Shown: positions 1 through 20,179 of the stretch, piece after piece
Layout of the letters: every line of letters starts with the position of its first letter
How positions within the stretch are numbered: position 1 is the first letter of the stretch
DNA from: a virus
Length of the DNA: 64,000 nt
IMG/VR virus record: IMGVR_UViG_3300030107_002093
Span: 1 to 64,000 of that record
Strand: one strand, 5' to 3'
Made by a program: the position numbers and the translations under genes
The notes under the pieces: model-generated
Database searches by the model: none
What the model was told of the DNA's origin: nothing
What the model saw: only the letters and a program-made list of their open reading frames with translations

Positions 1-1
1 T

Positions 2-268: not shown

Positions 269-1735
269 ATGAGTTGGTTTGACATTCTCAAGGATATGAG
301 GGAAGACCTTGAGCAAGCCACTAGAACAGTAGACACAAGCAACCCCGCCGCAATAAGAGATGAAAGACTAGCAGACGAACAGGCCTATGCTCAAGCCAAC
401 ACACCTCCCCCTGCTATGACTGTTGGTAGTCAAGTGCCGGGAACAATGCGAAGAGCAGGGCAATATATTGCAGACAAGACGGCTCCGCTTAGTGCGAATG
501 TTAGACAGACCTTGCAACAAGGAACAGATGCGGCAGTGCAAACTGGTAGAAACATCATGCATGATGTAGCAACAGGGGCCAGAGGAACGGCAAGTCAAAT
601 TGGCAGAGGTGTTCGGAATATACCACAAAACATCGTGCAAGGTGCTAAGAATATGGCTCCAACCCCTACTAACATTGCGAGTTATCACCAATCCGCATCA
701 CCCGTCAAGAGTAAAAGAGGGGCAACTAGAAACGTTGGTGAGTCAGAGGAACAATTTCAAGAGAGGGTATCACAAATGGAAGGTAGAAATCAACCAATAC
801 TCAACGAAGAAGGGGCCAACTATCAGCAGTGGCTTAGAGAGAAGGGATATGCTGACACTGCTGGGAAGGCAAAGGCAAAGAATATCATAAGGGACTGGAC
901 TGGATTTGGTGGAACTAAGAAACCCACTGAATCACAGAGGAGAGAACATCTAGCGGAATACGAGGCACATATGCAAGAGCAGACTAAAGACCCAAATTGG
1001 CAAATGAGTAGAACACAAGAGGTAACTGACCCTGCTACATTGGAAAGCATTGACAGGCGAATAGGAGAAGTAGAAGATAAGTTTGAGACTCGCCTAAGAG
1101 ATGCTAGTGCTGAGGACAGAGTAGATATCCAACGTGAGAAGAACAACGCATTAGCAGAACTGAATCGCAAGAAGATAACTGGAACCGGGCAATCGACAAG
1201 GGAAGAAGTTGAAGCCGAAAGAGAGAGACTACACCCATACGAGAAAGCACCACCAAAGGAAAAAGATGGGAAAGCACCACCAAAGGAAGAAGAAGGACTA
1301 TCACAGAATGTGAAAGACCAATTGAGCAGTGCCGAGCAATGGGATGCGGGTAATTGGATGGGTGAAGTGAAGGATGACGGACAGACTACTTTTGGTAATA
1401 TAATGTCAGATGGCTCACAGGAATCTGGAGCCGCTAAAGCGGCGAGAGAAGCCAGAGAAAAGAAGGAAGCGGACAACGCGGAGAAAACGAAAGACAATAC
1501 CGTTCAAACTAGACTTGGTAGAGATGCGAAAGGGAGAAGACTGCCGGGATATGGTGGAAAGATACCAAAAGGCAAACTATCGGATTTCAGGTTAGATGAA
1601 GGACAGGGCTATGGTGAATTCAAAGACGGTGGAGAAGGTAATGTTGCTGAACATGAGGAACTAGTAGCAGAGAAAGATAAGGAGAAGAGAGAAGCAATCT
1701 CTGGTAAGCAAACAGGATTAGGTGACTTCTCATGA
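269..1735 (+). CDS. Virion-associated candidate with MSWFDILK N-terminus (488 aa)
   Basis: I start this gene at ATG 269 rather than GTG 260. ATG 269 sits behind a GGTGGA ribosome-binding site and gives the N-terminus MSWFDILK, shared with several neighbours. The rest is hydrophilic, rich in Gln, Glu, Lys and Arg. Residues about 60-135 form a Thr/Gln/Ala-rich amphipathic stretch, and the middle and C-terminal third are highly charged, likely coiled-coil and disordered, with a repeated KAPPKE element around residues 330-345. No enzyme motif is visible. The stop overlaps the next start (ATGA). It could be an internal or ejected virion protein; that is inference from location and the shared tag. 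Confidence 0.8.
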   Translation: MSWFDILKDMREDLEQATRTVDTSNPAAIRDERLADEQAYAQANTPPPAMTVGSQVPGTMRRAGQYIADKTAPLSANVRQTLQQGTDAAVQTGRNIMHDVATGARGTASQIGRGVRNIPQNIVQGAKNMAPTPTNIASYHQSASPVKSKRGATRNVGESEEQFQERVSQMEGRNQPILNEEGANYQQWLREKGYADTAGKAKAKNIIRDWTGFGGTKKPTESQRREHLAEYEAHMQEQTKDPNWQMSRTQEVTDPATLESIDRRIGEVEDKFETRLRDASAEDRVDIQREKNNALAELNRKKITGTGQSTREEVEAERERLHPYEKAPPKEKDGKAPPKEEEGLSQNVKDQLSSAEQWDAGNWMGEVKDDGQTTFGNIMSDGSQESGAAKAAREAREKKEADNAEKTKDNTVQTRLGRDAKGRRLPGYGGKIPKGKLSDFRLDEGQGYGEFKDGGEGNVAEHEELVAEKDKEKREAISGKQTGLGDFS

Positions 1736-2388
1736 TTACGAGAAAGAGATGCGCACTTTGCAATCACGAAGACCGTGACCAATTTGAACAGGACTTGGAG
1801 AGCATTGCCATATCTCCCGATGAGTTGGACAATAGGATGAACTGGCCTAGTGGCACATCCTCAAGACATCAGAGGAATCACATGGCTGGCTACACCAATG
1901 CGTCTAACCCACGATGCAAGATTTGCATACACCCAATCAGAAGCGAGATTGAGAAACAAGTTCACGATGGGGCAATGACACCAACGGTTGCGGCTGAGGT
2001 TGTCGGTTGTTCGGAAGACCAGATAATGAGGCACATGAAGCACCACTTGCAACCACTAGTCCAACAGTCAGCCGCTCAACTAATCGCACAGAAGGACGTT
2101 GACGAGATTGGAGTCCTCAGCAATAACATCGGAAGGTTGGAGACAAAGGTGGATGAGTTGTTCGCACAGGATGGTGTAGACCCCAAGTATATTGACTCAC
2201 TAACCAAGTTGGCAAAGGAGATTCGTGAGAGCCTGAAGTATCTAATGGAGTTCAAGGGCAAGTTAGTCCACAAGAGGCAAGACACTATTATCGTTCATCA
2301 GATGCAAGTAATCAAGGAGGTTCTAGCACAGAACCACCCTGAAGTATGGTTAGATGTAAGAAAGCAAATGGAGGAGAAGATGCAATGA
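1732..2388 (+). CDS. Zinc-knuckle/helix-turn-helix protein, candidate small terminase subunit
   Basis: This 218-residue protein has two cysteine pairs in its first half: CALC near residue 8 and CKIC near residue 62. Each is followed by histidine-rich segments (HQRNH, HMKHH). The second pair leads into a predicted helix-turn-helix (about 70-105) with the pattern of an Ala-rich helix, a Val-Val-Gly turn and a recognition helix. The C-terminal half is a long helical or coiled-coil region. Small terminases of many tailed viruses pair an N-terminal DNA-binding HTH with a coiled-coil oligomerisation region, and this gene precedes TerL in the same operon. The role is inferred; another DNA-binding regulator is possible. 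It overlaps both neighbours by ATGA. Confidence 0.55.
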   Translation: MITRKRCALCNHEDRDQFEQDLESIAISPDELDNRMNWPSGTSSRHQRNHMAGYTNASNPRCKICIHPIRSEIEKQVHDGAMTPTVAAEVVGCSEDQIMRHMKHHLQPLVQQSAAQLIAQKDVDEIGVLSNNIGRLETKVDELFAQDGVDPKYIDSLTKLAKEIRESLKYLMEFKGKLVHKRQDTIIVHQMQVIKEVLAQNHPEVWLDVRKQMEEKMQ

Positions 2389-2681
2389 GTTGGAAGGATA
2401 TAGTGAAAGCGAAGAAGGTATATGCCGATAGGAAATACAAGTTGGGATACCTGCTTTGTAGAAATAACTGCATAAGGCCTGTAGAAGAGGGCCAAGAATA
2501 CTGTGCATGGTGTGGTGATAACTTTGATTATCAGGTTCCACCACCAAAGGGATTCAAGTTCGACAAGGAGCCACCGAAGGAACACAAGGAGGCAAAACTC
2601 GGATGGAATCCCCCTTGGGTTCCAAAGAAACTTCATGAGAAAGCCAAGGATGATGCTCACACTCTAATGTATGGAAAGTGA
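2385..2681 (+). CDS. Small zinc-ribbon protein with MSWKDIVK N-terminus (98 aa)
   Basis: The start at ATG 2385 overlaps the previous stop (ATGA) and yields the shared MSWxDI[LV]K N-terminal peptide; an upstream in-frame ATG at 2346 would remove that match. Residues about 25-48 contain four cysteines (CxxxC, then CxxC), consistent with one zinc ribbon. The remainder is rich in Pro, Lys and Trp, with no membrane segment. The tag plus a zinc ribbon in a very small protein suggests a virion-packaged or assembly-associated binding protein, but no family is recognised. Confidence 0.7.
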   Translation: MSWKDIVKAKKVYADRKYKLGYLLCRNNCIRPVEEGQEYCAWCGDNFDYQVPPPKGFKFDKEPPKEHKEAKLGWNPPWVPKKLHEKAKDDAHTLMYGK

Positions 2682-2682
2682 T

Positions 2683-3243
2683 ATGATGAATAGGGAAGAA
2701 ACGCTACATAAGAAAATGAGCAAGGTTGCTCAAGTAGCGCGATTCATCAAGAGGAACTTACCTAAATGGAAAGTAGTTGAAACCATACCAGATAGGGTGC
2801 ATGGAGGCATAGTAAGATATACTGAAGCGAATCCTTCTGAACAACATGACCCTAAAAACGAGCCACATCAGATTAGTCTACCAAGTAGTCCCGCAGTGAA
2901 ATGGAAGGCTTGGTTAAAACAACAACTAGCACCTGCATTGGAAAAGAATGCGGAAGAGATAGGAGTTGACGGACAAATGAGAAGTCGATACAGAAATCAA
3001 GGAGGTTACAAATTGGCAAGTGATAATAAAGAAAGCAAAACATGGTTCAGTGTTCTGAAACTGGAAAAGGAAAATTGGGAAAGTTCTGAGGGTAGTAGAG
3101 GAGAACCTACACAAGACTTCCCTGATGACGATAAGTTCTGGGATTCAGTTGCAGAGACTGACGAAGAAGAAGAAAAAAGAACGAGAGAAGAAGAGTTAGT
3201 GGAAGAAAACAAACGCATTGACCGAGAGAATCGTGGTGAATAA
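2683..3243 (+). CDS. Unknown charged protein (186 aa)
   Basis: Possible starts are ATG 2671, 2683 and 2686. I chose 2683 because it follows the previous stop directly with an AAGTGAT element ahead of it. The N-terminal third is basic (helical, KxxKxxKRNLPKWK-like). The C-terminal third is very acidic, ending in a Glu/Arg-rich helix. It lacks the MSW tag found on its neighbours on both sides. No known domain is seen. It is co-directional with the surrounding virion-type genes. Confidence 0.65.
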   Translation: MMNREETLHKKMSKVAQVARFIKRNLPKWKVVETIPDRVHGGIVRYTEANPSEQHDPKNEPHQISLPSSPAVKWKAWLKQQLAPALEKNAEEIGVDGQMRSRYRNQGGYKLASDNKESKTWFSVLKLEKENWESSEGSRGEPTQDFPDDDKFWDSVAETDEEEEKRTREEELVEENKRIDRENRGE

Positions 3244-3244
3244 G

Positions 3245-3763
3245 ATGAGTTGGTTTGACATATTGAAGAGTCCACCGCCATACCCCAAATCTTCGGAGAA
3301 TAAATTGGGATACTACTATGATGAACTAAGACCAGTGACGAAGAAACAAGTGGATGCGCATTGGGAACAGAACGAACTTCCAGAAGAGATGAAGGAACGC
3401 AGGGTATGGGCTACAACTAACAGGCATCAGGTAGGGAAAGGTGGCTATAGAATAGAAGGATATGACCCTAGTAATGCAAAGGACATGGAGACACTGAGAG
3501 GAGTCATGGGTCGTGGTCGTGCATTGGAGAGGGGTAAGGATAAGGACAATGTATACCCTTCTAATAAACTGAGCAAAGACCTGAGACAAATCTTCGATGA
3601 CAAGATGGCACAAGACGAGGATTGGGTTATTCAACAAGTGAGAAACAAGATAAGAGCCTTCGATAACAAGGGCTTCAAGTTTAGCACACAAAACCTAGCC
3701 ATCTTGAGACAGAATAATGCTGAACCAGATGTGATAAGATTTGTTGAGGATAAATTGAGGTGA
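3245..3763 (+). CDS. Unknown protein with MSWFDILK N-terminus (172 aa)
   Basis: ATG 3245 follows a GGTGAAT ribosome-binding site and gives MSWFDILK, identical over eight residues to the genes at 269 and 9027. An upstream alternative at 3218 would bury the tag and overlap the previous gene by 26 bases. The body is hydrophilic and mostly helical in appearance. A YRIEGYD segment near residue 65 resembles YRIEGFD in the 649-residue protein encoded at 26759-28708, a weak hint of a shared element. The C-terminal 50 residues look like a small all-helical domain. Function unknown. Confidence 0.75.
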   Translation: MSWFDILKSPPPYPKSSENKLGYYYDELRPVTKKQVDAHWEQNELPEEMKERRVWATTNRHQVGKGGYRIEGYDPSNAKDMETLRGVMGRGRALERGKDKDNVYPSNKLSKDLRQIFDDKMAQDEDWVIQQVRNKIRAFDNKGFKFSTQNLAILRQNNAEPDVIRFVEDKLR

Positions 3764-3767
3764 TACA

Positions 3768-5414
3768 ATGACATGGCATACTGTTCTCAAAGGAAGACCC
3801 TTCTTGACTAAAGACGAGGTTAAATTTGCTGGACAGGCCACAGCCGCTCAAATGGCTTCTATCCCAATGGAGATTGAAGATAGCGTCAAGAGCAAGAAGC
3901 AACTGACTAGGCTAATCAACAAGATACAGAGGTATGAGGGTGAGGAGTTTGAGGAGAAATTCCAACAAGCAGGTTGGGACGCATCAGATAGAGAGGAGAT
4001 TCTAGAGTTGCTCAATAAAACAAGAGAAGAATTAACTCAGCCAACAAAGGACAATCAACCTCACATTGCTGATAAGATTCAAACGTTCTTGGATGGTAAC
4101 CATGATGCTCTATTGGAACTCATAGAAAGGAGCAAGATGAAGGGATTGGCTTCTGCTATTCAACAATGGAACAAGAAAAACGGGGATGAACTACGCGAGT
4201 ATCTGAAGGACAAGCCCGACCTTGCTGAGAAATTCAAGAAGGTCTTCAAGAGATTAGAATCCGTAGAGGAGAGGAAGAAGCAGGTATCACCTGATGCAAT
4301 CGGAGATGACTTGGTATACGACTATGTGAAGATGATAGTAAATGACCTGAAGTTACCAACTAAAGGGGATGAGATTAGACTAGGAAAAATATCCTATTTG
4401 CCTATCACCCACTCACAGGGAAATCTTGCGATAAAGGTCTATGGGTTAGCCCCTAACCAAGGTGGGAATTTACCACCTGCCACTGCATATATTCTGAAGA
4501 ACGAGGATGTAGACCTTGAGCAATTCCTCGCAGTTGCAGATACTAAGACAAGCACGAAGAAAGAAATCATATTGAATCGATTGAGAAGTAGCAAAGTTGG
4601 AGGAGCCATACAGGATGCATGGGACAATAGCGAAACACTTAGTGGATTTGAGAATACAATTGCCGCAGATAGGAATCTCACTAAGGACTTCAAGGAACTA
4701 ATGGAAGCCCTTGGAAGTGAGATGAAAGTAGAGGATATCACTACAGAGGTTAAGTTCTCCATTCCCACACAAGCCTATGAGAAGATGATGGCAGTAGATT
4801 ATGATGACTCATTGAAGGTATACGGCATTAATTCCGAGGATGCTCTTGAGGAGATGATGGATGAGCATGAGGAAGACCTCGCTAGTTTCAAGGAGAAGGT
4901 ATCTGGGTTCTATAGGCCAGTTGATGGAGAAACAAAGAAAAGGCTAGAGAATTCTGAAGTCCTAGAGGATGAAGGAATAGAACTATGGGATTCTGAAGGA
5001 CGCTTGAAGGAATTATCTTCTAGCATGGCAAGCGGTAAGGCATTCCCACAATATCTGCAAACCCTCGCAGAAGCAGAGAGTCCGAACAAGATAATCCTAG
5101 AAGCGGCAGAGGGAAATAAGAACCAAGTGATGATAGGAGATTTCGTCCTATACATGATTAGAATAGAACAAGTGTATGAGGATAGAGACAGTGAGGTAAA
5201 GGAAGCAGTTTACCAATACACAGTAGAGCAAAGTGAAGAGAATAAAGAGAGACTAACCGAAGCATTGTCTTCTACTCAGTATGGTAAAATCAGAACTGCC
5301 TTCCTTGAGGCGATAAAGAAAAAGATGTCAGAGTTGCTAAGTGATTACAACAGTAATTATCTACATGAGAAGAACACGGTAGAGCCGTTGGAGTGGTTGT
5401 GGGAGAGAACATGA
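3768..5414 (+). CDS. Large unknown protein with MTWHTVLK N-terminus (548 aa)
   Basis: An AGGTGATACA element precedes ATG 3768. The N-terminus MTWHTVLKGRPF is a conservative variant of the MSWFDILK tag. The protein is acidic and predicted mostly helical with several coiled-coil-like stretches; a short Gly/Pro/Asn-rich, more strand-like section lies around residues 205-250. No catalytic motif or membrane segment is seen. The stop overlaps the next start by ATGA, implying translational coupling with the 944-residue protein that follows. Possible roles are an internal head protein or an ejection protein; both are inference from size, tag and location. Confidence 0.75.
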   Translation: MTWHTVLKGRPFLTKDEVKFAGQATAAQMASIPMEIEDSVKSKKQLTRLINKIQRYEGEEFEEKFQQAGWDASDREEILELLNKTREELTQPTKDNQPHIADKIQTFLDGNHDALLELIERSKMKGLASAIQQWNKKNGDELREYLKDKPDLAEKFKKVFKRLESVEERKKQVSPDAIGDDLVYDYVKMIVNDLKLPTKGDEIRLGKISYLPITHSQGNLAIKVYGLAPNQGGNLPPATAYILKNEDVDLEQFLAVADTKTSTKKEIILNRLRSSKVGGAIQDAWDNSETLSGFENTIAADRNLTKDFKELMEALGSEMKVEDITTEVKFSIPTQAYEKMMAVDYDDSLKVYGINSEDALEEMMDEHEEDLASFKEKVSGFYRPVDGETKKRLENSEVLEDEGIELWDSEGRLKELSSSMASGKAFPQYLQTLAEAESPNKIILEAAEGNKNQVMIGDFVLYMIRIEQVYEDRDSEVKEAVYQYTVEQSEENKERLTEALSSTQYGKIRTAFLEAIKKKMSELLSDYNSNYLHEKNTVEPLEWLWERT

Positions 5415-8245
5415 CATTAGAACTACTACTCAAGGAGAAGCCCAAATGGGTTAGGAAGTTCCTCTTGGAGGATAAGCCAACCTTCCTGAATAACGTGGTA
5501 GATTACCTCAATCAGGTTGACCCGGAAAAGGAGGCCGAACATACTAGGGAAACCTCTGGTAAAATCGTGAGAGAATTCCGCAAGGAGATTACACCTGAAG
5601 AGTTCTGGGAAGTAGTGGAGGATGACCAAGTAACTAGTGAGGTGTCTACCAATAGGATGTTCCTAATGAGAGAAGGTGACATCACACTACAAGGATGGAT
5701 GTTTGAACTGCTCGCTGATTCCGAGAAGGAGCAAGAGACAGAGGCTCAAGCGGATGTAGTGGCTCAACAACTCAGAGAGAAATACCCATCATTAGGCAGA
5801 CTCAGAAACGAGAACAAATACATCATGTTCGTTCTGTCTAAATTGAAGAGACTTTCAACTAAGGGCAAGGCTAGTGCGGTAGTTACCGAGGCAACCACCA
5901 AGACGGAGAAGGTTCTGAGGAACTTCAAAGCAGAGGGGAAGAGGCTCAATCTTCACATGTTCCTATCTGGTGAAGTCCCATCTCTGAGGAACCTACAGAT
6001 TGTCGGTGATACTAGCCCTAGCAAACTGAAGACATACAAGAGAGTCCTAGAGTCTGAGAAGGACAGTAAGTTGAGGAGTCGTATGGCTCCCTTAGTATCC
6101 TATTTGTCTAATTACATTCAAGGCGACATGCCGTATTACGAGGCTGACAAGTTGGATGCTGACAAGTTAATCGGCAAATTGGACTTGAAGTTCCTATCGC
6201 GTAGAGAGGAGATATACGACTACTGGCAGGGAATCCATGAGCAAGAATTCGCAGACCTGCAAACCGCAGTCAAGGATTTCACTGACGCATTGGAAGGATT
6301 CGATTCTGAGAATGAGAGACTGAATGACCTTATCAAGAAGATACAGGACTATGCAAAGGAATTCGACCAGTTCCCACACAGTATGCAATACACATTCCAG
6401 ATGAAGCCATTCAAGATGCAAGACCATGTGGATAAGAGAGACAAATACACCATACTCTTTGAGCGTTGGATGACCATATCTCAGAACCTCGGAAGTGGTA
6501 GGTATTCACAGAAGAAACTGATAGAGGAATTGAAGGATGAACTAGGGCCACTTGGAATAGGAAGCGCGGCCTTCAGACGAGATGAAGAAGGCAAACCCAT
6601 ACGAGGAGATAATGCTAGTGATGATTTGGGAATGGATGAGGCAGGGTCGCTATCTGGCCCGGAGCAGTTATCACCATTGGAAACTGAGGATATCTTAGAC
6701 GATGAAGCGGCAGTTACAGGAAAGGGAAAGTTCGATACTGAGATTTCCCCACCCACAAGGATTTCTGAGGAAGCAAGAAGCAATATGCAAGAGAGAAGCA
6801 GACTCGGTAGGAAACTCAAGAACCTAATGCAAGATGTCGAAGTAGACCCTCTATTCTACTATGTCTTCGCTCCCCAACAGAACAAGGAGAACAAATACGA
6901 GGCATGGTTGGACACACCTGTTTTCCTGAAGGAAATGAGGAGGCTCACAAGGAATTTCGCAATTGCCGGAGCCAAATATACAGTCGACATAGGTTCCGAG
7001 TTGTCGAACCACATTGATAGGCTAATGCAACAGGCCGCTACTACTAGGAAGGAGTATCATCTTCCTGTCTCAAACAAACTGATTATGATGATTGAGGATA
7101 GAGAGTTGTGGAACGAACTCGATGAGGACTCAAGGAAGATGCTGAAGGACTACAGTAGCAATGTCGAAAACATCACTGATTTCCTAGAGACTGTTGGTAG
7201 GATGATAGACAGTAGTGAGAATGAAATGGAGAGACTATCGAGTCCGGTTAGCACTACTGTGAGCAGTGAGAAGGACAAGGAGGGGAGGACTATTTCCCCA
7301 ACCATGTCAACGACTCATTTCGGCTCATCTAGAACGGAATCATTCGTAGATGAACTCGGCAATCTAAAGGAGGACTTCAATAAGATGCTGGATGCTATCT
7401 TTGAGTATTACGTTAAGCCCGTCAATAGCAGATACAGACCATTCGATGACCCAATCGCCTTCGGTGACAGAGGGGAATTAGGCTCTGCCATTGATTTGTT
7501 CAAGACTCTTGCACAAGACAATCGAAACGCGAATGCCTTCTTCATGCTACTATGGGCTGAGAGCATAGGACAAGGCGGGATAATAGCACCCAAGCAGTTG
7601 AACAGAATGACTGCCGCCTTGAAGGAATTAAGCACACCATCAAAGTTCAAGGATATGGAGCGTTTGAAATCTTCGTTGAGAGGATTAATGAAGGTCACTA
7701 ATCAAATTATGTCAGTTAGTGGGGAATCATTCAATGACGCTTTGGAAATTGAAATAGGGAAGTGGTTCCATGACTTCCTCCAGCGAAACAACAAACCAGA
7801 TGTGCAGTTCCCTAGAGGGACTAGTGTGGCTGAGTTGGCAGGTAGATGGGAGAAGAGCGAGATATACCCAATCGAAGCAGTTCAATTATACTTGGAGAGA
7901 AGCCAATCAGTCTATGATAAGGCTGGTATGAGTGATGAAGTCAATGCATTCAATTCCGCAATAGATGATATGAACATAGTCAAATCGAATGATGTCCCAG
8001 TGATAGAGGTTCATGATACCATTCGTAAGATGATGGGCAAGCCTGTCTATCACAATACTTCAAAACTCGATAACTTCAACCACATGGAATCTGCTATAGA
8101 TATCATGGAGAAGGAATACAACGTTGAAGTTACGGCTAGTGAGATAGAAAACATAGTCAACGATATTGACTCTATGGAAGGTCTAAGCAAGAGACACGGC
8201 ATTCCATCTGAAAGCGTCTATTTCCTAAAGGCGACTTTCAGGTGA
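5411..8245 (+). CDS. Very large helical protein, candidate internal virion protein (944 aa)
   Basis: The start is placed at ATG 5411, overlapping the previous stop (ATGA). GTG/ATG alternatives further upstream lie inside the neighbour. The N-terminus MTLELLLKEKPKWV keeps the LLK part of the shared peptide but has lost the Trp at position 3. The body is long, highly charged and almost wholly helical in appearance, with a low-complexity acidic linker around residues 385-450. No enzymatic motif is recognised. Large helical proteins encoded in a head operon upstream of TerL are often ejected or internal head proteins in tailed viruses; that parallel is inference only. Confidence 0.75.
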   Translation: MTLELLLKEKPKWVRKFLLEDKPTFLNNVVDYLNQVDPEKEAEHTRETSGKIVREFRKEITPEEFWEVVEDDQVTSEVSTNRMFLMREGDITLQGWMFELLADSEKEQETEAQADVVAQQLREKYPSLGRLRNENKYIMFVLSKLKRLSTKGKASAVVTEATTKTEKVLRNFKAEGKRLNLHMFLSGEVPSLRNLQIVGDTSPSKLKTYKRVLESEKDSKLRSRMAPLVSYLSNYIQGDMPYYEADKLDADKLIGKLDLKFLSRREEIYDYWQGIHEQEFADLQTAVKDFTDALEGFDSENERLNDLIKKIQDYAKEFDQFPHSMQYTFQMKPFKMQDHVDKRDKYTILFERWMTISQNLGSGRYSQKKLIEELKDELGPLGIGSAAFRRDEEGKPIRGDNASDDLGMDEAGSLSGPEQLSPLETEDILDDEAAVTGKGKFDTEISPPTRISEEARSNMQERSRLGRKLKNLMQDVEVDPLFYYVFAPQQNKENKYEAWLDTPVFLKEMRRLTRNFAIAGAKYTVDIGSELSNHIDRLMQQAATTRKEYHLPVSNKLIMMIEDRELWNELDEDSRKMLKDYSSNVENITDFLETVGRMIDSSENEMERLSSPVSTTVSSEKDKEGRTISPTMSTTHFGSSRTESFVDELGNLKEDFNKMLDAIFEYYVKPVNSRYRPFDDPIAFGDRGELGSAIDLFKTLAQDNRNANAFFMLLWAESIGQGGIIAPKQLNRMTAALKELSTPSKFKDMERLKSSLRGLMKVTNQIMSVSGESFNDALEIEIGKWFHDFLQRNNKPDVQFPRGTSVAELAGRWEKSEIYPIEAVQLYLERSQSVYDKAGMSDEVNAFNSAIDDMNIVKSNDVPVIEVHDTIRKMMGKPVYHNTSKLDNFNHMESAIDIMEKEYNVEVTASEIENIVNDIDSMEGLSKRHGIPSESVYFLKATFR

Positions 8246-8249
8246 TTAG

Positions 8250-9017: not shown

Positions 9018-9026
9018 GGTGTTAGT

Positions 9027-9848
9027 ATGAGTTGGTTCGATATTCTAAAAATCAGTGGCAAGGAACTACTCAATGCTGTAGAATTCAGCGATACCCATTT
9101 CAAAGACAACCAGACTCCGAAAAGTGACCACGGCTACAGTGTGAAAAACACCACAATGACTAGACCACATTTTGAGGGAAAGTCACAATCAGTAGGCGCA
9201 CTAGACAAAGATGACCTCCAAGTAGTCAGGAGGCAAATAGGGGCCAAAGGTGAGGAGTGGGATTTGAATTTCTCATTCGCCGCTCCTGATAACGAGGATT
9301 ACATTGTCACATGGAGAAGGGTAAACACAAGAAGTGAATTGCCCGGTAGTGGCCTTTTACAAGCAAAAACAGGAAAAGCCAGACCTAAAGTCAGAGGATT
9401 CGGACATAATGATGCACCCAGAGGGATAGTTGTGTTTGATAGCATATACCCCACAGACGTTAATGCATATGATGACCCAATAGGAAATATAGAAGCAAAG
9501 ATGGCGGCTAATGAGGTCACTGATATTTTCCCTCTTTGGCCGAATGATGCCGAGAGATGGAAGAAAGTCAAGGGACAAGAAGAGGACGAGCCTGAAGTTA
9601 CTTGGACAGAGCGAGATGAGAAAGACTTGGAGTCATATAAAAAGAAACAAAGGAAATACGAAGCGAAAAAACGAGAGTTAGGGAACAAATACAAAGGCGA
9701 TGGTCAGTATGAATTCCGAAAGACTGAGATAGCACGACTAGAACAGAAAAGAACAAAGGCAATGGGTGGGGATAAGAAGCAAATCGATAACAAGAGAAGG
9801 CGAAAAGGAGGAGGAGGGCCACCTAATCCATTCGGGGGTAAGACCTGA
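9027..9848 (+). CDS. Unknown basic-tailed protein with MSWFDILK N-terminus (273 aa)
   Basis: ATG 9027 follows AGGTGTTAGT and encodes MSWFDILK exactly. The middle is a mixed strand/helix region. The last 80 residues are a highly charged Lys/Glu/Arg coiled coil ending in a Gly/Pro-rich basic tail, suited to nucleic-acid or protein contact. The stop overlaps the TerL start by one base (TGATG), so the two are probably translationally coupled. It is the tagged protein closest to the packaging genes. No known family is recognised. Confidence 0.75.
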   Translation: MSWFDILKISGKELLNAVEFSDTHFKDNQTPKSDHGYSVKNTTMTRPHFEGKSQSVGALDKDDLQVVRRQIGAKGEEWDLNFSFAAPDNEDYIVTWRRVNTRSELPGSGLLQAKTGKARPKVRGFGHNDAPRGIVVFDSIYPTDVNAYDDPIGNIEAKMAANEVTDIFPLWPNDAERWKKVKGQEEDEPEVTWTERDEKDLESYKKKQRKYEAKKRELGNKYKGDGQYEFRKTEIARLEQKRTKAMGGDKKQIDNKRRRKGGGGPPNPFGGKT

Positions 9849-11290
9849 TGGAACTAGATGACATGGACTTCGTTTCTGCAATGGACATGGAGATGTCCAA
9901 GACATCCTTCCCATACTTCTTCCAGAACGTCCTCGGTATGATGTTCCCACCATACATGGAGGAATGGCTTGAGTCGATGCAGACGACTGATAGGACTGTC
10001 ATCATCTGTAGTCGTGACCACGGCAAGTCCGTCTTCATGCATTGTTGGGTTGTATGGAACCTAGTATTCCAAGAGCCACCATATCAGATGCTATACATCT
10101 CATCGAACCAGAAGCAGACTCTTGTTCACATGCGCGAGATTGACAGATACTTCAATCATCCAGCATTGAAGAAGTTCCGCCCCAGTAGGAACTGGGCCAT
10201 TGGTAACATACAACTCACTAATGGCAACGCAATCCTAGAGAGGTCAGTTGGCTCTCAGATTAGAGGACTCCATCCACAGGAGATTATCATTGACGACCCC
10301 TTGAAGGAGTTCAGTCTATCTGCTATCCAAAGAGTGACTGACTGGTTCTTCGGTGACATGATACCCACTCTTCACCACACATCCAACCTGCGAATGATTG
10401 GGACACCATTCACATACACTGACATCTTCGCACAATTGGAAGAGAACCAAGCATACACCGTAACCAAGTATCCCTGTTTCAATGCATTGAACGAACCACT
10501 ATGGCCTGAGAGATGGGATAGTGATGCTCTGTTACAAAGGAAGGCTGAGATTGGTTCCCTCAAGTTTACCCGTGAGTATCTGTGTGTTCCCATATCAACT
10601 GGAACCTCGCTGTTCAATCCAGAATTCATACAGAACTGTAAGAACAAGGAATACGTTCTGAAACTAGGAAATAGGAAGGACAAGGGATACAAGTATTACG
10701 TTGGGGTTGACCCAGCGATATCCACTGATGGTGACTACAATGTGATAACAGTCTTGGAAGTGGATGATGAGGCAAACAAAACCATTGTCCATGTAGACCG
10801 AGCAAAGAACGTTGAGTTCAGGGAAAACATAGAGAAGATTAGACTGATTGGTAAGATATTCCAACCGGAAGTGGTTCTCTATGAAACTAACACTTTCGCC
10901 AAGGCATTTACTCAGGAGTTGAGAAGTATTTCTGACTTGAACATCAAGGACTTTGACACCACTCGTAAGAAGAAGCAAGAGATAATACTCAACCTACAAA
11001 TGAACATAGAGAATGGGAAATTGAATTTCCCCTATGGCGATAATGCCAGCAGAAGGTTGACTAACCTGTTGATTGAGGAACTATCCATGTTCAGCATCAC
11101 GGAGTCTGGTCGCTTTGAGGGAGTAGGCGCACATGACGACTTGGTTATGAGCCTCGCTTTAGCCAATGCCGCGACTCAAGCACCAAGCGAGAACTTTATC
11201 CTCCTAGATGATATGGACTTGTTTGATACGACTCCGGTAAGACCTATGGGCAACGTTATGCCCGGAGGAATAATGGGATTGAATATCTAG
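9848..11290 (+). CDS. terL: Terminase large subunit (DNA packaging ATPase-nuclease)
   Basis: This is a two-domain packaging motor protein that translocates DNA into the prohead and cuts it, docking on the portal. The Walker A variant CSRDHGKS lies at residues about 54-61. Walker B IIIDD at 146-150 is followed by a catalytic-glutamate region and an IGTP coupling-type motif near 184. The C-terminal RNase H-like nuclease shows GVDPA (Asp 288), an Asp/Glu in VLYETN (Glu 346) and GAHDDLVMSLALA (Asp 430/431). At 480 residues it has normal length. It is coupled to the preceding gene and followed 8 bases later by a LAGLIDADG-containing protein, then the portal. Confidence 0.95.
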   Translation: MELDDMDFVSAMDMEMSKTSFPYFFQNVLGMMFPPYMEEWLESMQTTDRTVIICSRDHGKSVFMHCWVVWNLVFQEPPYQMLYISSNQKQTLVHMREIDRYFNHPALKKFRPSRNWAIGNIQLTNGNAILERSVGSQIRGLHPQEIIIDDPLKEFSLSAIQRVTDWFFGDMIPTLHHTSNLRMIGTPFTYTDIFAQLEENQAYTVTKYPCFNALNEPLWPERWDSDALLQRKAEIGSLKFTREYLCVPISTGTSLFNPEFIQNCKNKEYVLKLGNRKDKGYKYYVGVDPAISTDGDYNVITVLEVDDEANKTIVHVDRAKNVEFRENIEKIRLIGKIFQPEVVLYETNTFAKAFTQELRSISDLNIKDFDTTRKKKQEIILNLQMNIENGKLNFPYGDNASRRLTNLLIEELSMFSITESGRFEGVGAHDDLVMSLALANAATQAPSENFILLDDMDLFDTTPVRPMGNVMPGGIMGLNI

Positions 11291-11298
11291 GTGATACT

Positions 11299-12750
11299 AT
11301 GGGTGTGAAAGGAGACAAACTAAGGGAAGTTGCCGCTCTTGCTGACGAAGAGGAGACATTAGTAGAAGAGCAACAGAGACTCACTGAAGAACTAAGGCGT
11401 TCTTGGTTGTCTGACCAACCCGTATCAAACCATTTTGACATTGAGAAGAAATTCGCAGTAGAGAACAAGGTTTCCCTATCCGATGCTAAGAAGCAACTGA
11501 ATGAGGATTTCAAGAAATACGAGGTAGAGGGGAAGGACATTCCATCGTTAATCAAGGAACTCAAGAACTACCGTAGGACTTTGAAAGGCGAGGAGAAAGT
11601 CAAGATTACACAATCCATTGACAATCTCATCAAGGGCTATGCATCCCATTTGGATGAGACAATAGAGAAGATATACTGGCTTGCCAAATACAAGCCTGTG
11701 GTCAAGGAGATGGTTTGTTCCGAGGAGCAACTAATCAAACTCTCATACATCCACGATGAGAACACTCGTAGAGAAGCATTGGACTCCCTCTGCAAGTATT
11801 GGGAAGCGAGGTTGGATAGAGCAGAAAGCCCATACAACTCTAGATACTCCTCGTTGACCAAGGAGATGACCAATAGCAAGAAGGCATTCAAGAAGACAAT
11901 CAAGGAACACATGCCAAGCATTGGGCCGAAGGATATCATCAAGCAAGAGATTCTACATGCAGTATGTGAAGAGCCGGGAATATCTGCTAGGCAGATACAT
12001 GAGAGACTACCTAAGAACCTCTTCAAGAAAACGTCACCTAGTATCATCTCTAAGATGGCTAGGACTCAGAATATCACCACGGTTGATGGTGCGTTCTACA
12101 AGTTCAGTGATGACATCAAGAAGGACATCTATGCATACACTGCCGCTTTCATTGACTCAGATGGATACATTACAATGGACAAAAATTTTAATCCAAGAGT
12201 TGGACTCGTTGCCACTGGCGATAGGGGGAAGGCATTCATGCTAGAGATGCACAAGTCGCTAGGTTGTGGTAGACTGCACTTAGACCAAAAATCCCCACAA
12301 GATACGAAACCCGTTAATAGACTGAATTTTTACTCTGCGGCAGATGTCGGAGAAATACTTACGAAATGTAGGCCTTTCCTGAAGATGAAAGGGACTAATG
12401 CTGACATTCTCCTTGAGTTGCTGAGAATGAAGAAATCCCATAAGAAGGCTGATTGGTATAAGCCCAGAAGGGAAGAACTTTTCCAACTGATGAAGTATGA
12501 GAACCACAAGGATAACACGAATTACGATTTCGCTAAATATGGGATAGACAGAGAAACAGTCTTCAAGTTCCATGATAACTCTAAGATGACAGAGATGGAT
12601 GTAATCGAAGGAGTCATCAAGGGTGCAGATGAGGCCATTGATGATTTAGAGGAGATTGCTGAGGAGCATGACCTATCAGAGGATGAGTGGAGTTCAGTAG
12701 ATGATGCGTCTGACTATCTTTTTGAGCATAAGGTGATGGAGGAAGAGTAG
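11299..12750 (+). CDS. LAGLIDADG-domain protein between terminase and portal (483 aa)
   Basis: An AGGTGATACT element precedes ATG 11299. Residues 1-210 are charged and helical. Residues about 213-270 resemble a winged helix (GISARQIHERL, then a short wing). At about 277-293 the segment TAAFIDSDGYIT matches the LAGLIDADG signature, including the two conserved acidic positions and the following Gly-Tyr-Ile. The roughly 110 residues after it show the usual pattern of a single-motif LAGLIDADG domain (GCGRL strand, RLNFYSAADVGEIL, then a Leu-rich helix). The C-terminus returns to an acidic helical tail. It could be a homing endonuclease, or a resident virion protein that absorbed one. Conserved acids suggest a functional fold; activity is unproven. 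Confidence 0.7.
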   Translation: MGVKGDKLREVAALADEEETLVEEQQRLTEELRRSWLSDQPVSNHFDIEKKFAVENKVSLSDAKKQLNEDFKKYEVEGKDIPSLIKELKNYRRTLKGEEKVKITQSIDNLIKGYASHLDETIEKIYWLAKYKPVVKEMVCSEEQLIKLSYIHDENTRREALDSLCKYWEARLDRAESPYNSRYSSLTKEMTNSKKAFKKTIKEHMPSIGPKDIIKQEILHAVCEEPGISARQIHERLPKNLFKKTSPSIISKMARTQNITTVDGAFYKFSDDIKKDIYAYTAAFIDSDGYITMDKNFNPRVGLVATGDRGKAFMLEMHKSLGCGRLHLDQKSPQDTKPVNRLNFYSAADVGEILTKCRPFLKMKGTNADILLELLRMKKSHKKADWYKPRREELFQLMKYENHKDNTNYDFAKYGIDRETVFKFHDNSKMTEMDVIEGVIKGADEAIDDLEEIAEEHDLSEDEWSSVDDASDYLFEHKVMEEE

Positions 12751-12752
12751 GT

Positions 12753-14390
12753 ATGGCAGACGAGAAAAGGAGATTCAGCATTGGAAATTTGTTTAGGAGG
12801 ACTACCCCTAAGCCAGCAGATAGGACGGTATACAATCCGGGGATTCAAGAGAAGGACACATCATACCTATTGACTTCACCTGTTATCTATCACATTGCCC
12901 AACAGTCAGTGATTGTCAGGACATGTGTAACCCAGTTGAAGAATGAGGTATTCAGAAGAGGATATCTCTGGGAAGAGAAGTTCGTCAAGAAGTGCATGGA
13001 TTGCGGTAAGGAACACCAATCACCAGTAGACCAATGTGCAGAGTGTGAATCCCCCAATCTAGAGAAGCCCAACCCTGAGCAGTTGAAGTATGCGCAGAAG
13101 TTCCTAGAGGGCTATGTCAACAAGGCAGAGCAACTGTTCATTGACGTATTGAAGGAATTGGAGGATGACTTGAACATCATGGATGATGCCTATTTGGTTT
13201 TAGTTAAGGAATACTTCATGGATAACAACAACCAGATTCGTATGCATAGAATCAAGGAGGTCTATCGTGGCGACCCTGTGACTATGCACATCTACTCTAA
13301 CGACTTAGGGGAAAGGGGCAAGGGAGGGTATGTCTGTGTAAAACACAGAGATAGAATAGAAACGAGTTCGACTGGACTCTGTGAGGAATGCAACTCAGAA
13401 CTTCATCCAGTTCACTATGTCAATAGAGTGAAGGGAGAGGAGCAATACTTCACGAAGGGAGAGGTGTTGCATTTCAGCAAATACTCTCCCGGTAGGATGT
13501 ATGGGCTATCTCCAATAATCACACTATGGAATCATGTGACTACGCTAATCGCAATGGAGAACTACGTTAACTCATCATACACCAAGGCTAGAATGCCGAA
13601 GGGATTGCTCGCAGTCCAGACTAGGAACATTGACTCCATGAAGTCCTTCTGGCGAAGCGTCAAGGAGAAGATGGAGACTGACCCACACTTCATTCCTGTA
13701 ATGGGAATCGAGGCAGAGAACGGTAAGGGTTCGATTGAGTGGGTGAAGTTCATGGATAGCCTCAAGGAGATGGATTACATCTCTGTCAAGGATGACTTGA
13801 GAGATAGGATATCAGGTTTCTATGGAGTGAGCAAGGTCTTCATGGCAGATAACTCTGCAAGTGGTGGCCTGAACAATGAGGGTATGCAGATTCTAGTTAC
13901 GAACAGAGCGGTTGAGATGGCCCAGACAATCTGGAACAACTACGTCTTCCCATTCGTCACGCAGGAATTCGGAATCTTAGATTGGGAACTGAAACTCCCA
14001 CCTTCCGAGGAAGAGGATGAGATAGCCAAACTCCGTAAGAGGGAGATTGAAGTCAACGTTGCATCCGCTATCAAGAACCTTGGATTTGAGGTCAATATGG
14101 ATGACGAAGGACGTTTCACCTATGTGAAGCCACCACAACCAGAAGACCAACAGGGACAAGACGAAGTAGAACTAGACCCATACGCTGGAACCAATATCGA
14201 TGCTGGTCATTTAGGTCAGATGATGGAAGCGGGTAATAAACCCTCAATGGCAGATGCGGGTAAACCAGCAGAGGTAAAATCTAGGAATAAGCCTAGTATG
14301 AGCGTTGGGCCTGATAAGAGATTCAGTGGATTGCCGAAAGACGCAGGTAATGAAAACGTGGATAAGCGAACAGAGAGGCGAGTCGGTTGA
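12753..14390 (+). CDS. Portal protein with two zinc-knuckle insertions
   Basis: This is the dodecameric head vertex through which DNA passes. Recognition rests on overall layout: position just after TerL, 545 residues, and the typical central region with RVKGEEQYFTKGEVLHFSKYSP, GLSPI and a long helix followed by GFYGVSKVFM and a NEGMQILVTNR segment, as in HK97/SPP1-type portals. Unusually, two cysteine knuckles interrupt it: CxxC...CxxC at about residues 81-98 and CxxH...CxxC at about 194-212. The C-terminus is a low-complexity polar tail. It is coupled to a tiny downstream gene by TTGA overlap. Confidence 0.85.
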   Translation: MADEKRRFSIGNLFRRTTPKPADRTVYNPGIQEKDTSYLLTSPVIYHIAQQSVIVRTCVTQLKNEVFRRGYLWEEKFVKKCMDCGKEHQSPVDQCAECESPNLEKPNPEQLKYAQKFLEGYVNKAEQLFIDVLKELEDDLNIMDDAYLVLVKEYFMDNNNQIRMHRIKEVYRGDPVTMHIYSNDLGERGKGGYVCVKHRDRIETSSTGLCEECNSELHPVHYVNRVKGEEQYFTKGEVLHFSKYSPGRMYGLSPIITLWNHVTTLIAMENYVNSSYTKARMPKGLLAVQTRNIDSMKSFWRSVKEKMETDPHFIPVMGIEAENGKGSIEWVKFMDSLKEMDYISVKDDLRDRISGFYGVSKVFMADNSASGGLNNEGMQILVTNRAVEMAQTIWNNYVFPFVTQEFGILDWELKLPPSEEEDEIAKLRKREIEVNVASAIKNLGFEVNMDDEGRFTYVKPPQPEDQQGQDEVELDPYAGTNIDAGHLGQMMEAGNKPSMADAGKPAEVKSRNKPSMSVGPDKRFSGLPKDAGNENVDKRTERRVG

Positions 14391-14491
14391 GCGATTTGCT
14401 TGAGATAGCGAAAAGATGGAAAGAAGAAATTGACAAATTGAATGCAGAGACTGATGAAAGATTAAGAAAATATTTGGAGGAAGGAAAATGA
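14387..14491 (+). CDS. Very small helical protein (34 aa)
   Basis: A TTG start at 14387 overlaps the portal stop (TTGA), and the TGA at 14489-14491 overlaps the ATG of the next gene (ATGA). Coupling at both ends supports a real gene, although it is only 34 codons. The product is one long, highly charged amphipathic helix (MSDLLEIAKRWKEEIDKL at the start). It has no cysteines and no membrane segment. It could act as a helical adaptor or a leader for the next gene. The same TTGA overlap occurs at 16403. Confidence 0.6.
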   Translation: MSDLLEIAKRWKEEIDKLNAETDERLRKYLEEGK

Positions 14492-14712
14492 GTGAAGAAA
14501 AAGGCGTAAGACAATTGGAACGAGAACTGAAAGCCGCAAGGAGCAGACAAAGAGCGGAGCATGAGAATAAGGTCACGAAAACCCGTGACTTCTCTGTGGG
14601 TGGGGTAGACCCTAACACGAAGAAAAAGGATAAGCCTGATTCAGCAGATATTCCAAATGCAATCTTACTACCAAAGAAGAAGAAACCAAGGAAAGAGAAC
14701 ATACCATTCTAA
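14488..14712 (+). CDS. Small basic protein (74 aa)
   Basis: ATG 14488 follows a GGAGGAAGG ribosome-binding site and overlaps the preceding tiny gene. The N-terminal 30 residues are a charged helix. The rest is Lys/Pro-rich and probably disordered, ending in a KKKKPRKENIPF tail. No known domain. Its strong positive charge fits nucleic-acid or acidic-partner binding during assembly. Function unknown. Confidence 0.65.
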   Translation: MSEEKGVRQLERELKAARSRQRAEHENKVTKTRDFSVGGVDPNTKKKDKPDSADIPNAILLPKKKKPRKENIPF

Positions 14713-14725
14713 GGGGGCTGATTAG

Positions 14726-15904
14726 TTGTCATACATGGATATCCTCAGAAAGCAGGGTGGGGAAGTCCATGATGACATCTATGACATCAAGGGGAATCTC
14801 ACCCCAAAGCAATTGAGGACTGCATCTAGCAAATGGAATGAGGAACAATTTGGCCCTAACCTACTAGCACAACCTGCTCCACTAAAAGACAGAAGGGCGA
14901 GAGCAGATGGAGATTGGAAAACCAATCCCGGCTTCATGGCTAATTCAAGTAAGGTTCTAGATAGAATAGAGGCATTGCCATCCGCTACTACTCCCGAAGA
15001 GATGATGAGTGCAGAATACTCATTGAGAGGCGAGATAGAAGAAATCCTAGAAGGCTTGCAAGAAGGCTATGTAAAGGAGATGGAACGCAGAGGCAAGCAA
15101 AAAGAGCAATTCAAACAACGGGTCTTCGATGTAGACGCAATGGAAGAGATACTCCGGATGACTGCCAAGTTCGATAACCCAGCCATGTTAGAGGAGAAGT
15201 TCCCACAGAAAGAGAAGTTCATCAAGGATTGGGGAACGGATTTCGCTTCCTACAAGGACAAGATAGATGCCTTCCTGTATTACGGTGAGCCAGTAGCAGG
15301 TTCGGTCAGAGAGATGTTCCTTGAATCTCCGAATGCTTCTAGATTCGATAAGGAGTCCTCTGAGTGGATGGAAGGAGAGGAATCAGCATACAAGAAGTAT
15401 AATGGCAAACTCTCCAAAGAGGTATGGGAGGACTTGATGAACTTCTTGGGCTTAGAAATCATGCGTGGTTCTGATAAGGATATTTCTAGAGGAAGATTAG
15501 AACAACACATACAATTCGATGAGAAGAACCTTGACCAGATTTTCCACTTGATACCAGAGGACAATCTACTAGAGAAATTCCCAGTATTGTTTGAAGAGGA
15601 CTCATTCGATGATTTAGAGAGTGCGCTCTACATTCTAATAGAAGATGTCATGGAAATGCATGATGACTATCTGGATGCTGATGAAACCGATGAGAAGACA
15701 GAAGATAACATCGAGAAGTATCTAACAGCAATAGAGTTCCTGATGCATGTCTTTGAGATAACAAAGACGGATGATTACGTTAATGAGAAAGTATTGAAGG
15801 AACTAGAAGAGATAGAGAGTCCAAGGCCATTCCAACCCCATAGAGAATTCAGAAATATAATAGACGCACATGATGTGTGGGATGAAGAGGAGGAGTCTGA
15901 ATGA
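14726..15904 (+). CDS. Acidic helical protein with MSYMDILRK N-terminus (392 aa)
   Basis: The likely start is TTG 14726, preceded by GGGGGCTGAT, because it yields MSYMDILRK, a variant of the shared MSWFDILK peptide. The nearest ATG (14735) would remove the first three residues of the tag. The protein is strongly acidic and almost entirely helical in appearance, with no catalytic motif. The stop overlaps the following MSWQSILK gene by ATGA. Probably a structural or assembly protein; the family is unrecognised. Confidence 0.7.
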   Translation: MSYMDILRKQGGEVHDDIYDIKGNLTPKQLRTASSKWNEEQFGPNLLAQPAPLKDRRARADGDWKTNPGFMANSSKVLDRIEALPSATTPEEMMSAEYSLRGEIEEILEGLQEGYVKEMERRGKQKEQFKQRVFDVDAMEEILRMTAKFDNPAMLEEKFPQKEKFIKDWGTDFASYKDKIDAFLYYGEPVAGSVREMFLESPNASRFDKESSEWMEGEESAYKKYNGKLSKEVWEDLMNFLGLEIMRGSDKDISRGRLEQHIQFDEKNLDQIFHLIPEDNLLEKFPVLFEEDSFDDLESALYILIEDVMEMHDDYLDADETDEKTEDNIEKYLTAIEFLMHVFEITKTDDYVNEKVLKELEEIESPRPFQPHREFRNIIDAHDVWDEEEESE

Positions 15905-16224
15905 GTTGGCAATCTATCCTAAAAACCAATGGTCTAGTAGAGAAACTAGAGCCTAAACAGAAGAAGAGAATAAAGAAACTCCTACAGGCGGCTCAACCAA
16001 CAGAGTTCATGGGTCAGGAGATAGCGCAATTGTCTGATTTGTTGGAAGAGATGAAGGGTCTTGACTTAGTGAAGAACGATAAGAACATGCAGAAGAAGTT
16101 TGAGAAGTTCGATGAAAACAACTTAGACCTAGTTGCTACAGCCTCCGAACTACGGAAGGATTACGAGACACTATACAATCAGTTGAGAAAAGAGATTTAC
16201 CCAAAGAAGGAGAGGAAGAAATGA
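15901..16224 (+). CDS. Small helical protein with MSWQSILK N-terminus (107 aa)
   Basis: The ATG overlaps the previous stop (ATGA) with GAGGAGTCTG ahead of it. After the tag MSWQSILK the protein is a basic, Lys-rich set of helices with heptad-like Leu spacing around residues 40-100. The stop again overlaps the next gene's ATG, so three tagged genes in a row (14726, 15901, 16221) are translationally chained. No homologous family is recognised. Confidence 0.7.
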   Translation: MSWQSILKTNGLVEKLEPKQKKRIKKLLQAAQPTEFMGQEIAQLSDLLEEMKGLDLVKNDKNMQKKFEKFDENNLDLVATASELRKDYETLYNQLRKEIYPKKERKK

Positions 16225-16406
16225 GTTGGCAAGATATATTGAAGAAGATTCCCATCCCTAAAGAAACCGAAGGTAACTTTAGAGGAAAAGAACCTGCTAC
16301 TGCTGAAGGCAGATACGGCACTAAAGTCACACCCGAAGACATAGAAAGGGAAATGGAAGAAAGAAGAAAGGAAGATGAGGAACAAGGGATTCCTCCGATG
16401 GATTGA
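16221..16406 (+). CDS. Short protein with MSWQDILKK N-terminus (61 aa)
   Basis: The ATG overlaps the previous stop and follows a GGAGAGGAAG site. The product is little more than the MSWQDILKK peptide joined to a disordered, charged segment and an acidic Arg/Glu helix. That a gene can consist of the tag plus about 50 hydrophilic residues argues that the tag is a portable targeting or docking element rather than part of a large fold. Function unknown. Confidence 0.7.
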   Translation: MSWQDILKKIPIPKETEGNFRGKEPATAEGRYGTKVTPEDIEREMEERRKEDEEQGIPPMD

Positions 16407-16816
16407 TTGAAATGAACATGAGAGGAATACTACAGGACAACCTTCGCAAGCAGAAGTGGTTCAGCATCATTAAGCAAGATATTGGTGACCTCGCTGGTGA
16501 GATTGCTGACATGCTGGACAACAACGAGGCCATTATGGGTGTGACTCCCGATGGTGACTACGATGACATGCTGGATGGATACAGGGACAGTGGTGAAACA
16601 CATGTTACAGACTACATCTCATTAGAGCCAACATACCAACACGAAGAGGATGAGGAAGTGACAATAGAATTCGATTTGAACTTCTGGGACTACAAAAATC
16701 ACCTTAGACTAGGTTCATATACAGGTGATAGTGGCTACTACATAGCGATGGAAGATTGGGGCGAGGAAGATAGAGAAGCACTACTGGCCCTGAAGGAACA
16801 TTTGGAGGAGATATAA
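16403..16816 (+). CDS. Unknown acidic protein with WFSIIK element (137 aa)
   Basis: Possible starts are TTG 16403, which overlaps the previous stop in the same TTGA style as 14387, or ATG 16412 or 16418. Near the N-terminus, residues about 19-24 read WFSIIK, which resembles the WFDILK part of the neighbours' tag but is not at the extreme N-terminus. The rest is strongly acidic, with predicted strands (VTIEFDLNFWDY) and a C-terminal helix. It may be a compact alpha/beta domain of unknown role. The last base is shared with the next ATG. Confidence 0.65.
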   Translation: MIEMNMRGILQDNLRKQKWFSIIKQDIGDLAGEIADMLDNNEAIMGVTPDGDYDDMLDGYRDSGETHVTDYISLEPTYQHEEDEEVTIEFDLNFWDYKNHLRLGSYTGDSGYYIAMEDWGEEDREALLALKEHLEEI

Positions 16817-17052
16817 TGACAAGCGAAGAAAACAATGAGATGATACTACTACTGAAGGAACTAGTCAATAAAGTCAAGTCACTTGAGGAGGTCGTCTATC
16901 AGAAAGATAATCTACTTATGAAAAGTGGACTCGTAGTAGTTGATAGCCCAACGCCATCACTAGGCAATGAAACAACCGCATTCTCAGGAGATACAGTAGC
17001 AAAGATGGATTGGTCACAGATTAGCGATATCATAGAGACAATAGAGGGATAG
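16816..17052 (+). CDS. Small coiled-coil protein with scaffold-like C-terminus (78 aa)
   Basis: The ATG overlaps the previous stop by one base (TAATG). The first 38 residues form a heptad-patterned coiled coil, then a Ser/Thr/Pro linker. The C-terminus contains MDWSQISDIIETIE. That ending aligns with the C-terminus of the protease-scaffold protein encoded at 20180-21385 (SWSDIHSIVE): WS-x-I-x-x-I-[VI]-E. Since the C-terminal helix of scaffolding proteins commonly docks onto the capsid protein, this protein may bind the same site. That role is inference. Confidence 0.65.
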   Translation: MTSEENNEMILLLKELVNKVKSLEEVVYQKDNLLMKSGLVVVDSPTPSLGNETTAFSGDTVAKMDWSQISDIIETIEG

Positions 17053-17053
17053 T

Positions 17054-17245
17054 ATGGCATGGAGAGAACTTCTGAAGAAAAACCTCGATGAAGAAGAGGA
17101 AGAACTTGAGAAGATACTACCCGCAGTGGCGGCAGGGGCAAGAGCCGCCGCCTCTTCACCTACAGGAAAGAAAGTAATAGCACAAGGCGCACAGATGGGT
17201 GCTAATTATGCAATGGACAAATATCAACAAAACAAAAAGCAGTGA
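17054..17245 (+). CDS. Small Ala/Gly-rich protein with MAWRELLKK N-terminus (63 aa)
   Basis: ATG 17054 immediately follows the previous stop. The N-terminus MAWRELLKKN is a looser version of the shared tag (Trp at 3, Leu-Leu-Lys at 6-8). Then come a run of Glu and a roughly 25-residue Ala/Gly-rich stretch (residues 24-50) that could be a weakly hydrophobic helix. It could contact membrane or pack inside the head. No known family. Confidence 0.6.
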   Translation: MAWRELLKKNLDEEEEELEKILPAVAAGARAAASSPTGKKVIAQGAQMGANYAMDKYQQNKKQ

Positions 17246-20158: not shown

Positions 20159-20179
20159 TAAGAAAAAAAGGTGATTGGA

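Follow-up and report, generated by a model that had tools for sequence, protein, structure and literature searches.

A short N-terminal peptide of the type MSWxDILK recurs on otherwise dissimilar proteins encoded by IMG/VR virus record IMGVR_UViG_3300030107_002093 (102,725 bases), of which bases 1-64000 are the stretch analysed here (64,000 bases; the window), and probably serves as a portable, cleavable capsid-targeting sequence (CTS). A preliminary description of the window had proposed the peptide as a portable signal for packaging proteins into the head, and sequence tests support that proposal: the peptide stands at a fixed distance from the initiator Met, precedes 134 unrelated clusters of proteins and is strongly confined to the head module in relatives.

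Tagged genes in the virus genome

A check of the sequence found all peptides of the preliminary description where it had placed them. Eight ATG-started tags in the window match the DNA pattern ATG-N3-TGG-N6-NTN-NTN-AAR, against 0.09 expected, and 0/100 shuffled sequences reached eight. The copies of the peptide (the tag) in the window are:

269-292, + strand: MSWFDILK, N-terminal tag of a charged protein of 488 amino acids (aa; gene 269-1735); ATG start, pattern match
2385-2408, + strand: MSWKDIVK, N-terminal tag of a 98-aa protein (gene 2385-2681); ATG start, pattern match
3043-3060, + strand: internal WFSVLK in a 190-aa protein (gene 2671-3243), a possible internal cleavage site, additional to the earlier list
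3245-3268, + strand: MSWFDILK, N-terminal tag of a 172-aa protein; ATG start, pattern match
3768-3791, + strand: MTWHTVLK, N-terminal tag of a 548-aa protein; ATG start, pattern match
9027-9050, + strand: MSWFDILK, N-terminal tag of a 273-aa protein; ATG start, pattern match
14726-14749, + strand: MSYMDILR, N-terminal tag of a 392-aa protein; TTG start, homologues with MSFMDILR/K and ATG
15901-15924, + strand: MSWQSILK, N-terminal tag of a 107-aa protein, the most widespread tagged protein (tblastn matches in 99 loci); ATG start, pattern match
16221-16244, + strand: MSWQDILK, N-terminal tag of a 61-aa protein; ATG start, pattern match
16457-16474, + strand: WFSIIK, a tag preceded by an N-terminal extension (gene at 16403); homologue (L046) with MSWKDILK at the N-terminus
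17054-17077, + strand: MAWRELLK, N-terminal tag of a 63-aa protein; ATG start, pattern match

ATG-started MSFMDILR at the corresponding place in relatives supports the TTG start at 14726. For gene 2671-3243, which carries the internal WFSVLK, a homologue search among relatives found none for comparison. MTLELLLK (5411), counted as a tag in the preliminary description, was removed from the set as a weak candidate: it lacks W, and relatives among the matches listed are untagged.

Across the whole record the same pattern is matched 11 times, always in the forward direction; the reverse strand and the control each gave 0. Three more tags lie beyond the window (98563, 99195 and 102259 of the record), as does a TTG-started MSWFDIIK at about 98090. 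The record is terminally redundant, its ends sharing a repeat of ~99 bases (window 1-99 = record 102627-102725), and is probably a complete, circularly mapping genome. Given this terminal repeat, these four tags sit just upstream of the window start, and the tagged block spans from ~98 kb, over the origin, to 17.2 kb. The window start itself falls inside a tagged gene, encoding a proline-rich protein that begins with MGWEDVLK (102259) and ends at window position 259.

The tag among relatives

Relatives were fetched with the protease as query, 80 loci at first and then a wider set, with an alignment that included halovirus HVTV-1. All fetched loci together encode 325 tagged open reading frames (ORFs), of which 290 are distinct; without their first ten residues these form 134 clusters (93 of them singletons) that have no similarity beyond the tag, bearing out the dissimilarity first noted within the window. 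A common short N-terminal peptide on several unrelated proteins is one of the features of the T4-type CTS class, and here 134 clusters share nothing but the tag.

The 133 cluster representatives that have W give the consensus M-[S/T/N]-W-x-[D/N/E/S]-[I/V]-[L/I/V]-K, in which the logo shows E, Q, K and F at x. Conservation ends sharply at K8, positions 9 to 14 being without clear preference, and this stop fits P6-P1 of a cleavage site without demands on the P′ side. As the tagged set had been selected by pattern, positions were re-tested singly with the others held fixed, which gave W at residue 3 in 217/228 and K at residue 8 in 217/230. The motif offset was residue 3 in 221 cases, against no more than 27 at any other offset; the spacing from Met is fixed.

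Location was counted relative to the protease, which could serve as an anchor in 79 loci of the first set. Upstream of it lie 169 tagged ORFs, with one downstream and none on the opposite strand, while four permuted control motifs gave 0 to 3. Confinement to the head region, which the preliminary description had seen in the window, therefore extends to relatives with few off-module exceptions, and non-virion genes in these relatives do not carry the tag at equal frequency. Whole-record scans found 6 to 11 pattern matches per clade A record tested and 11 to 15 per clade B record, almost always on a single strand and with 0 to 1 control matches; each clade C record had 0 to 1 and the two haloviruses had 0. 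No other recurrent N-terminal tag in clade C was convincing, the candidate ranking being dominated by homologous genes. A scan of genome-bin contigs yielded no more than 6 loci, from bins that bear the labels Maricaulis, Altibacter and Omnitrophota; in five of the six the protease is of clade A or B, and these are probably viral contigs that had been binned.

Head-module proteins of HVTV-1 and HCTV-1, from which the tag is absent, have a recurrent short segment like VYVDSPDEAPEGV that could be a cargo module of their own:

L090 12230-15376, 16623-20564 and 20557-21018; L091 12831-15971 and 18929-22561: VYVDSPDEAPEGV-like segments in head proteins of haloviruses HVTV-1 and HCTV-1

Candidate cleavage sites in the protease and capsid proteins

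The tagged block is followed by the protease and capsid genes, in which the following features were identified:

20171-21385, + strand: prohead protease fused to a coiled scaffold (Peptidase_S78, T4 gp21-like fold)
20228-20242, + strand: site 1, FSILK, residues 20-24, proposed self-cleavage site at the N-terminal edge of the protease domain
20684-20698, + strand: site 2, FDILK, residues 172-176, proposed self-cleavage site in the protease-scaffold linker
21344-21382, + strand: scaffold C-terminal helix SWSDIHSIVERYQ, with a start like that of the tag (MSWxDI); W393 invariant in 61 homologues
21397-22767, + strand: major capsid protein, HK97 fold family
21472-21486, + strand: capsid N-arm ALLK/S, residues 26-30, proposed maturation cleavage after K29

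The protease matches Pfam PF04586 (Peptidase_S78) with 40.2 bits against a cut-off of 21 (E 5e-10), and the best solved relative of its structural model in Foldseek is T4 gp21 (5jbl; prob 1.00, E 4e-4), the Epstein-Barr virus and human cytomegalovirus proteases following further down the list above E 0.001. A sequence search against solved structures returned unrelated weak matches only. A single-sequence model was discarded (mean predicted local distance difference test, pLDDT, 44).

FxILK lies just before the protease domain in 39/39 close homologues, where the residues ahead of site 1 vary freely, and FDILK just after it in 39/39, allowing I/V exchange; site 2 falls in a low-confidence linker of the model. 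K24, F172, K176 and W393 are invariant in 61 protease homologues, down to 38% identity. In the capsid protein K29 is invariant in 77 homologues. Capsid arms of clade B vary in length and sequence, yet [LI][LM]K[ASG] persists, and the corresponding core is ELLK[AS] in clade C and LMKS in haloviruses. The tag, both protease edges and the capsid arm, three kinds of site, thus share the core [I/L/V][L/I/V/M]K, two hydrophobic residues and Lys, at places where maturation cuts would be expected.

The scaffold ends in a predicted helix (393-403) that starts at W393, and its end in relatives reads [M/L/I]-[S/D]-W-x-[D/E]-[I/V/L/A]-H, which suggests that the N-terminal half of the tag (M-S-W-x-D-I) copies a scaffold docking end (SWxDIH). 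These links to the protease edges, the capsid arm and the scaffold C-terminus, absent from the preliminary description, give the tag its most informative partners.

Discussion

We infer that the tag has two functional halves. The M-S-W-x-D-I half would dock its carrier on the prohead core during assembly, perhaps as a mimic of the scaffold C-terminal SWxDIH helix, or else in the substrate groove of the protease-scaffold fusion, a groove present on every scaffold chain. The [I/V]-[L/I/V]-K half would be cut by the S78/gp21-like prohead protease; this enzyme would also free itself at FSILK/S and FDILK/x and trim the capsid N-arm at LLK/S. At maturation the 8-residue tag would be clipped off after Lys, while the cargo would remain in the head and probably enter the host together with the injected DNA. 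As a general means of cargo loading, in which one 8-residue code (mimic of the capsid-binding scaffold end, then protease site) loads fast-changing proteins for injection, we consider the scheme to have an even chance of being correct.

Several observations weigh against a cleavable targeting signal. A few tagged genes lie off the head module, on the minus strand near replication genes (L199 and L198) or after the tail genes (L180). Clade C viruses retain the two protease sites, the site in the capsid protein and the SW end of the scaffold with 0 to 1 tags per record, which indicates that the protease can operate without tags. The proposed self-cleavage and capsid sites lack W, placing W outside the minimal cleavage motif. 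Confidence in the protease model is moderate (mean pLDDT 64.7). Finally, the residue ahead of W at the scaffold end shows no covariation with residue 2 of the tag (Fisher p = 0.70), so that scaffold mimicry is only suggestive.

Some of these points would suit a tag that only docks, as a short helix on the capsid shell or scaffold, and is never removed, with the protease-scaffold using the same docking peptides. The SWxDI common to the tag and the predicted scaffold C-terminal helix, the fixed distance to the N-terminus and the cleavage-like sites without tags in clade C are all compatible with it. We nevertheless regard permanent docking as unlikely, given that conservation stops exactly at Lys8 and that what the tag has in common with the protease edges and the capsid arm is just [ILV][ILVM]K, at positions that maturation cuts would be expected to occupy.

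Conversely, the tag might be a substrate motif and nothing else, allowing the protease to trim proteins that enter the head by another route. Its core does resemble the other proposed protease sites, and a few proteins have internal copies. However, W3 and the distance from Met are kept as strongly as Lys, and since W is missing from the other sites they represent extra information; trimming eight residues off 134 unrelated families would, moreover, have no obvious other use. This explanation appears very improbable.

The preliminary description had argued from codon usage that selection acts on the peptide, and this held. Ile, Leu, Val and Lys codons of the tag vary freely, as in the background, and the variation of Ile, Leu and Lys codons argues for selection on the peptide; Ser2, in contrast, is almost always AGT (125/131 tagged genes, versus 63% of those untagged genes that have Ser2 and 28% among other Ser codons). 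AGT at Ser2 (e.g. window 272-274) points to a preference at the start site and to some further influence. An element of the nucleic acid or of translation start (ATGAGTTGG) instead of a peptide signal, or gene starts copied recently, could account for the AGT bias, but this reading is largely refuted by the freely varying codons. The replacement of Ser2 by Thr, Asn, Asp or Gly and the retention of the peptide in diverged homologues also speak against it, and it is the least credible of the explanations considered.

A portable, cleavable tag has its closest described counterpart in layout in the T4 CTS, found on IPI, IPII and IPIII and cleaved by gp21. Both are short N-terminal peptides on diverse, fast-changing proteins, with an aromatic residue, then hydrophobics, then the P1 residue (proposed for the tag), and with targeting and processing in separate halves in T4 (PMC9026906) and putatively here; a gp21-fold protease is proposed here as the processor on the basis of the model, and in both the cargo is unconserved between relatives. 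The T4 CTS has 10 residues, of which 4 and 7 (N-terminal) serve targeting and 8 and 10 processing, and a processing-defective version is reported still to direct a reporter into heads (PMC9026906). It can package foreign proteins, and the T4 internal proteins differ between relatives (PMC9026906, PMC3012670). In contrast to the T4 CTS, the tag MSWxDILK has 8 residues and a proposed P1 Lys instead of Glu. Genomes of the tag-bearing clades contain about 6 to 15 pattern matches each, and 134 clusters carry the tag, versus a handful of T4 cargos; the lineage is probably one of archaeal viruses, and its protease is fused to the scaffold. Compared by eye with T4 starts (IPIII MKTYQEFIAE/A; gp21 MNEPQLLIE), the tag does not have the (L/I)xE cleavage motif and ends in Lys. 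The T4 parallel of the preliminary description stands for layout and putative function but not for sequence or P1 residue; judged from sequence, the tag is a functional analogue of the T4 CTS and not a member of its sequence family.

In HK97, unlike in the present virus, a domain of the capsid protein acts as the scaffold, and no portable tag is known in that phage. The two systems share a Pfam S78 protease (gp4 in HK97) beside an HK97-fold capsid protein, and Lys/Ser-Ala at the proposed capsid site, the HK97 capsid being cut at K103/S104 (PMC10275583). For phage P1 DarB, an N-terminal signal (first 30 residues) suffices to bring a reporter into the head; unlike the tagged proteins, the Dar proteins have no common consensus (PMC9024508). 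Giant phages SPN3US and phiKZ also have head-protein N-terminal propeptides cut at one motif, and protease self-cleavage (PMC5694885, PMC10052503), but their motif is AxE/SxE and the propeptides mostly exceed 100 residues. A literature search with thin coverage of subscription journals turned up no description of such a tag for archaeal viruses, and no paper that mentions these viruses together with capsid targeting.

Nearly all tagged proteins are without an assigned function in Pfam or PHROGs; single members match PAP2, GNAT, DUF6782 (a putative metallopeptidase), DUF6321, DUF5754 and zinc ribbons. Charged residues make up a median fraction of 0.35 in tagged proteins, versus 0.19 in the capsid protein and 0.23 in the terminase. 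The large proportion of singletons recalls the turnover seen in T4 internal proteins, whose role is in host take-over. The tagged PAP2-superfamily protein (L181 11693-12511; cluster of 10) is lipid-phosphatase-like and possibly carried in the head. Rare tags on the replication strand (L198 2376-2681 and L199 1507-2208, both minus) include one GNAT-like acetyltransferase.

All 11 matches of the capsid protein are archaeal viruses (best about 25% identical), and the genes include PolB, ATP ligases and ERCC4. The viruses may belong with the magrovirus-like tailed viruses of Poseidoniales, whose marks would be archaeal head genes related to Druskaviridae and replication by PolB. These are probably uncultured marine viruses infecting archaea, the host being assigned by relatedness alone. 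Two ATP-dependent DNA ligases occur in one virus (window 17507-20149 and L008 12150-13679); the longer (880 aa) belongs to the head module, where it immediately precedes the protease, and is kept in relatives. WKKIVK in the N-region of the DNA ligase was rejected as a site, being missing in distant relatives. A homing-endonuclease-like ORF (window 11299-12750; PHROG HNH endonuclease, 6.7e-05) lies between the terminase and portal genes.

If the tag is a cleavable targeting sequence, the virion cargo of uncultured marine viruses, and its delivery to the host, would be readable from sequence alone, and more than 100 families of 'hypothetical protein' would become predicted virion cargo. It would also give the protease specificity for a large unstudied virus lineage, and the peptide would be a candidate for packaging foreign proteins. 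Scaffold mimicry followed by cleavage offers a checkable hypothesis for how a targeting peptide acts, and the tag would constitute an archaeal-virus parallel to the T4 system.

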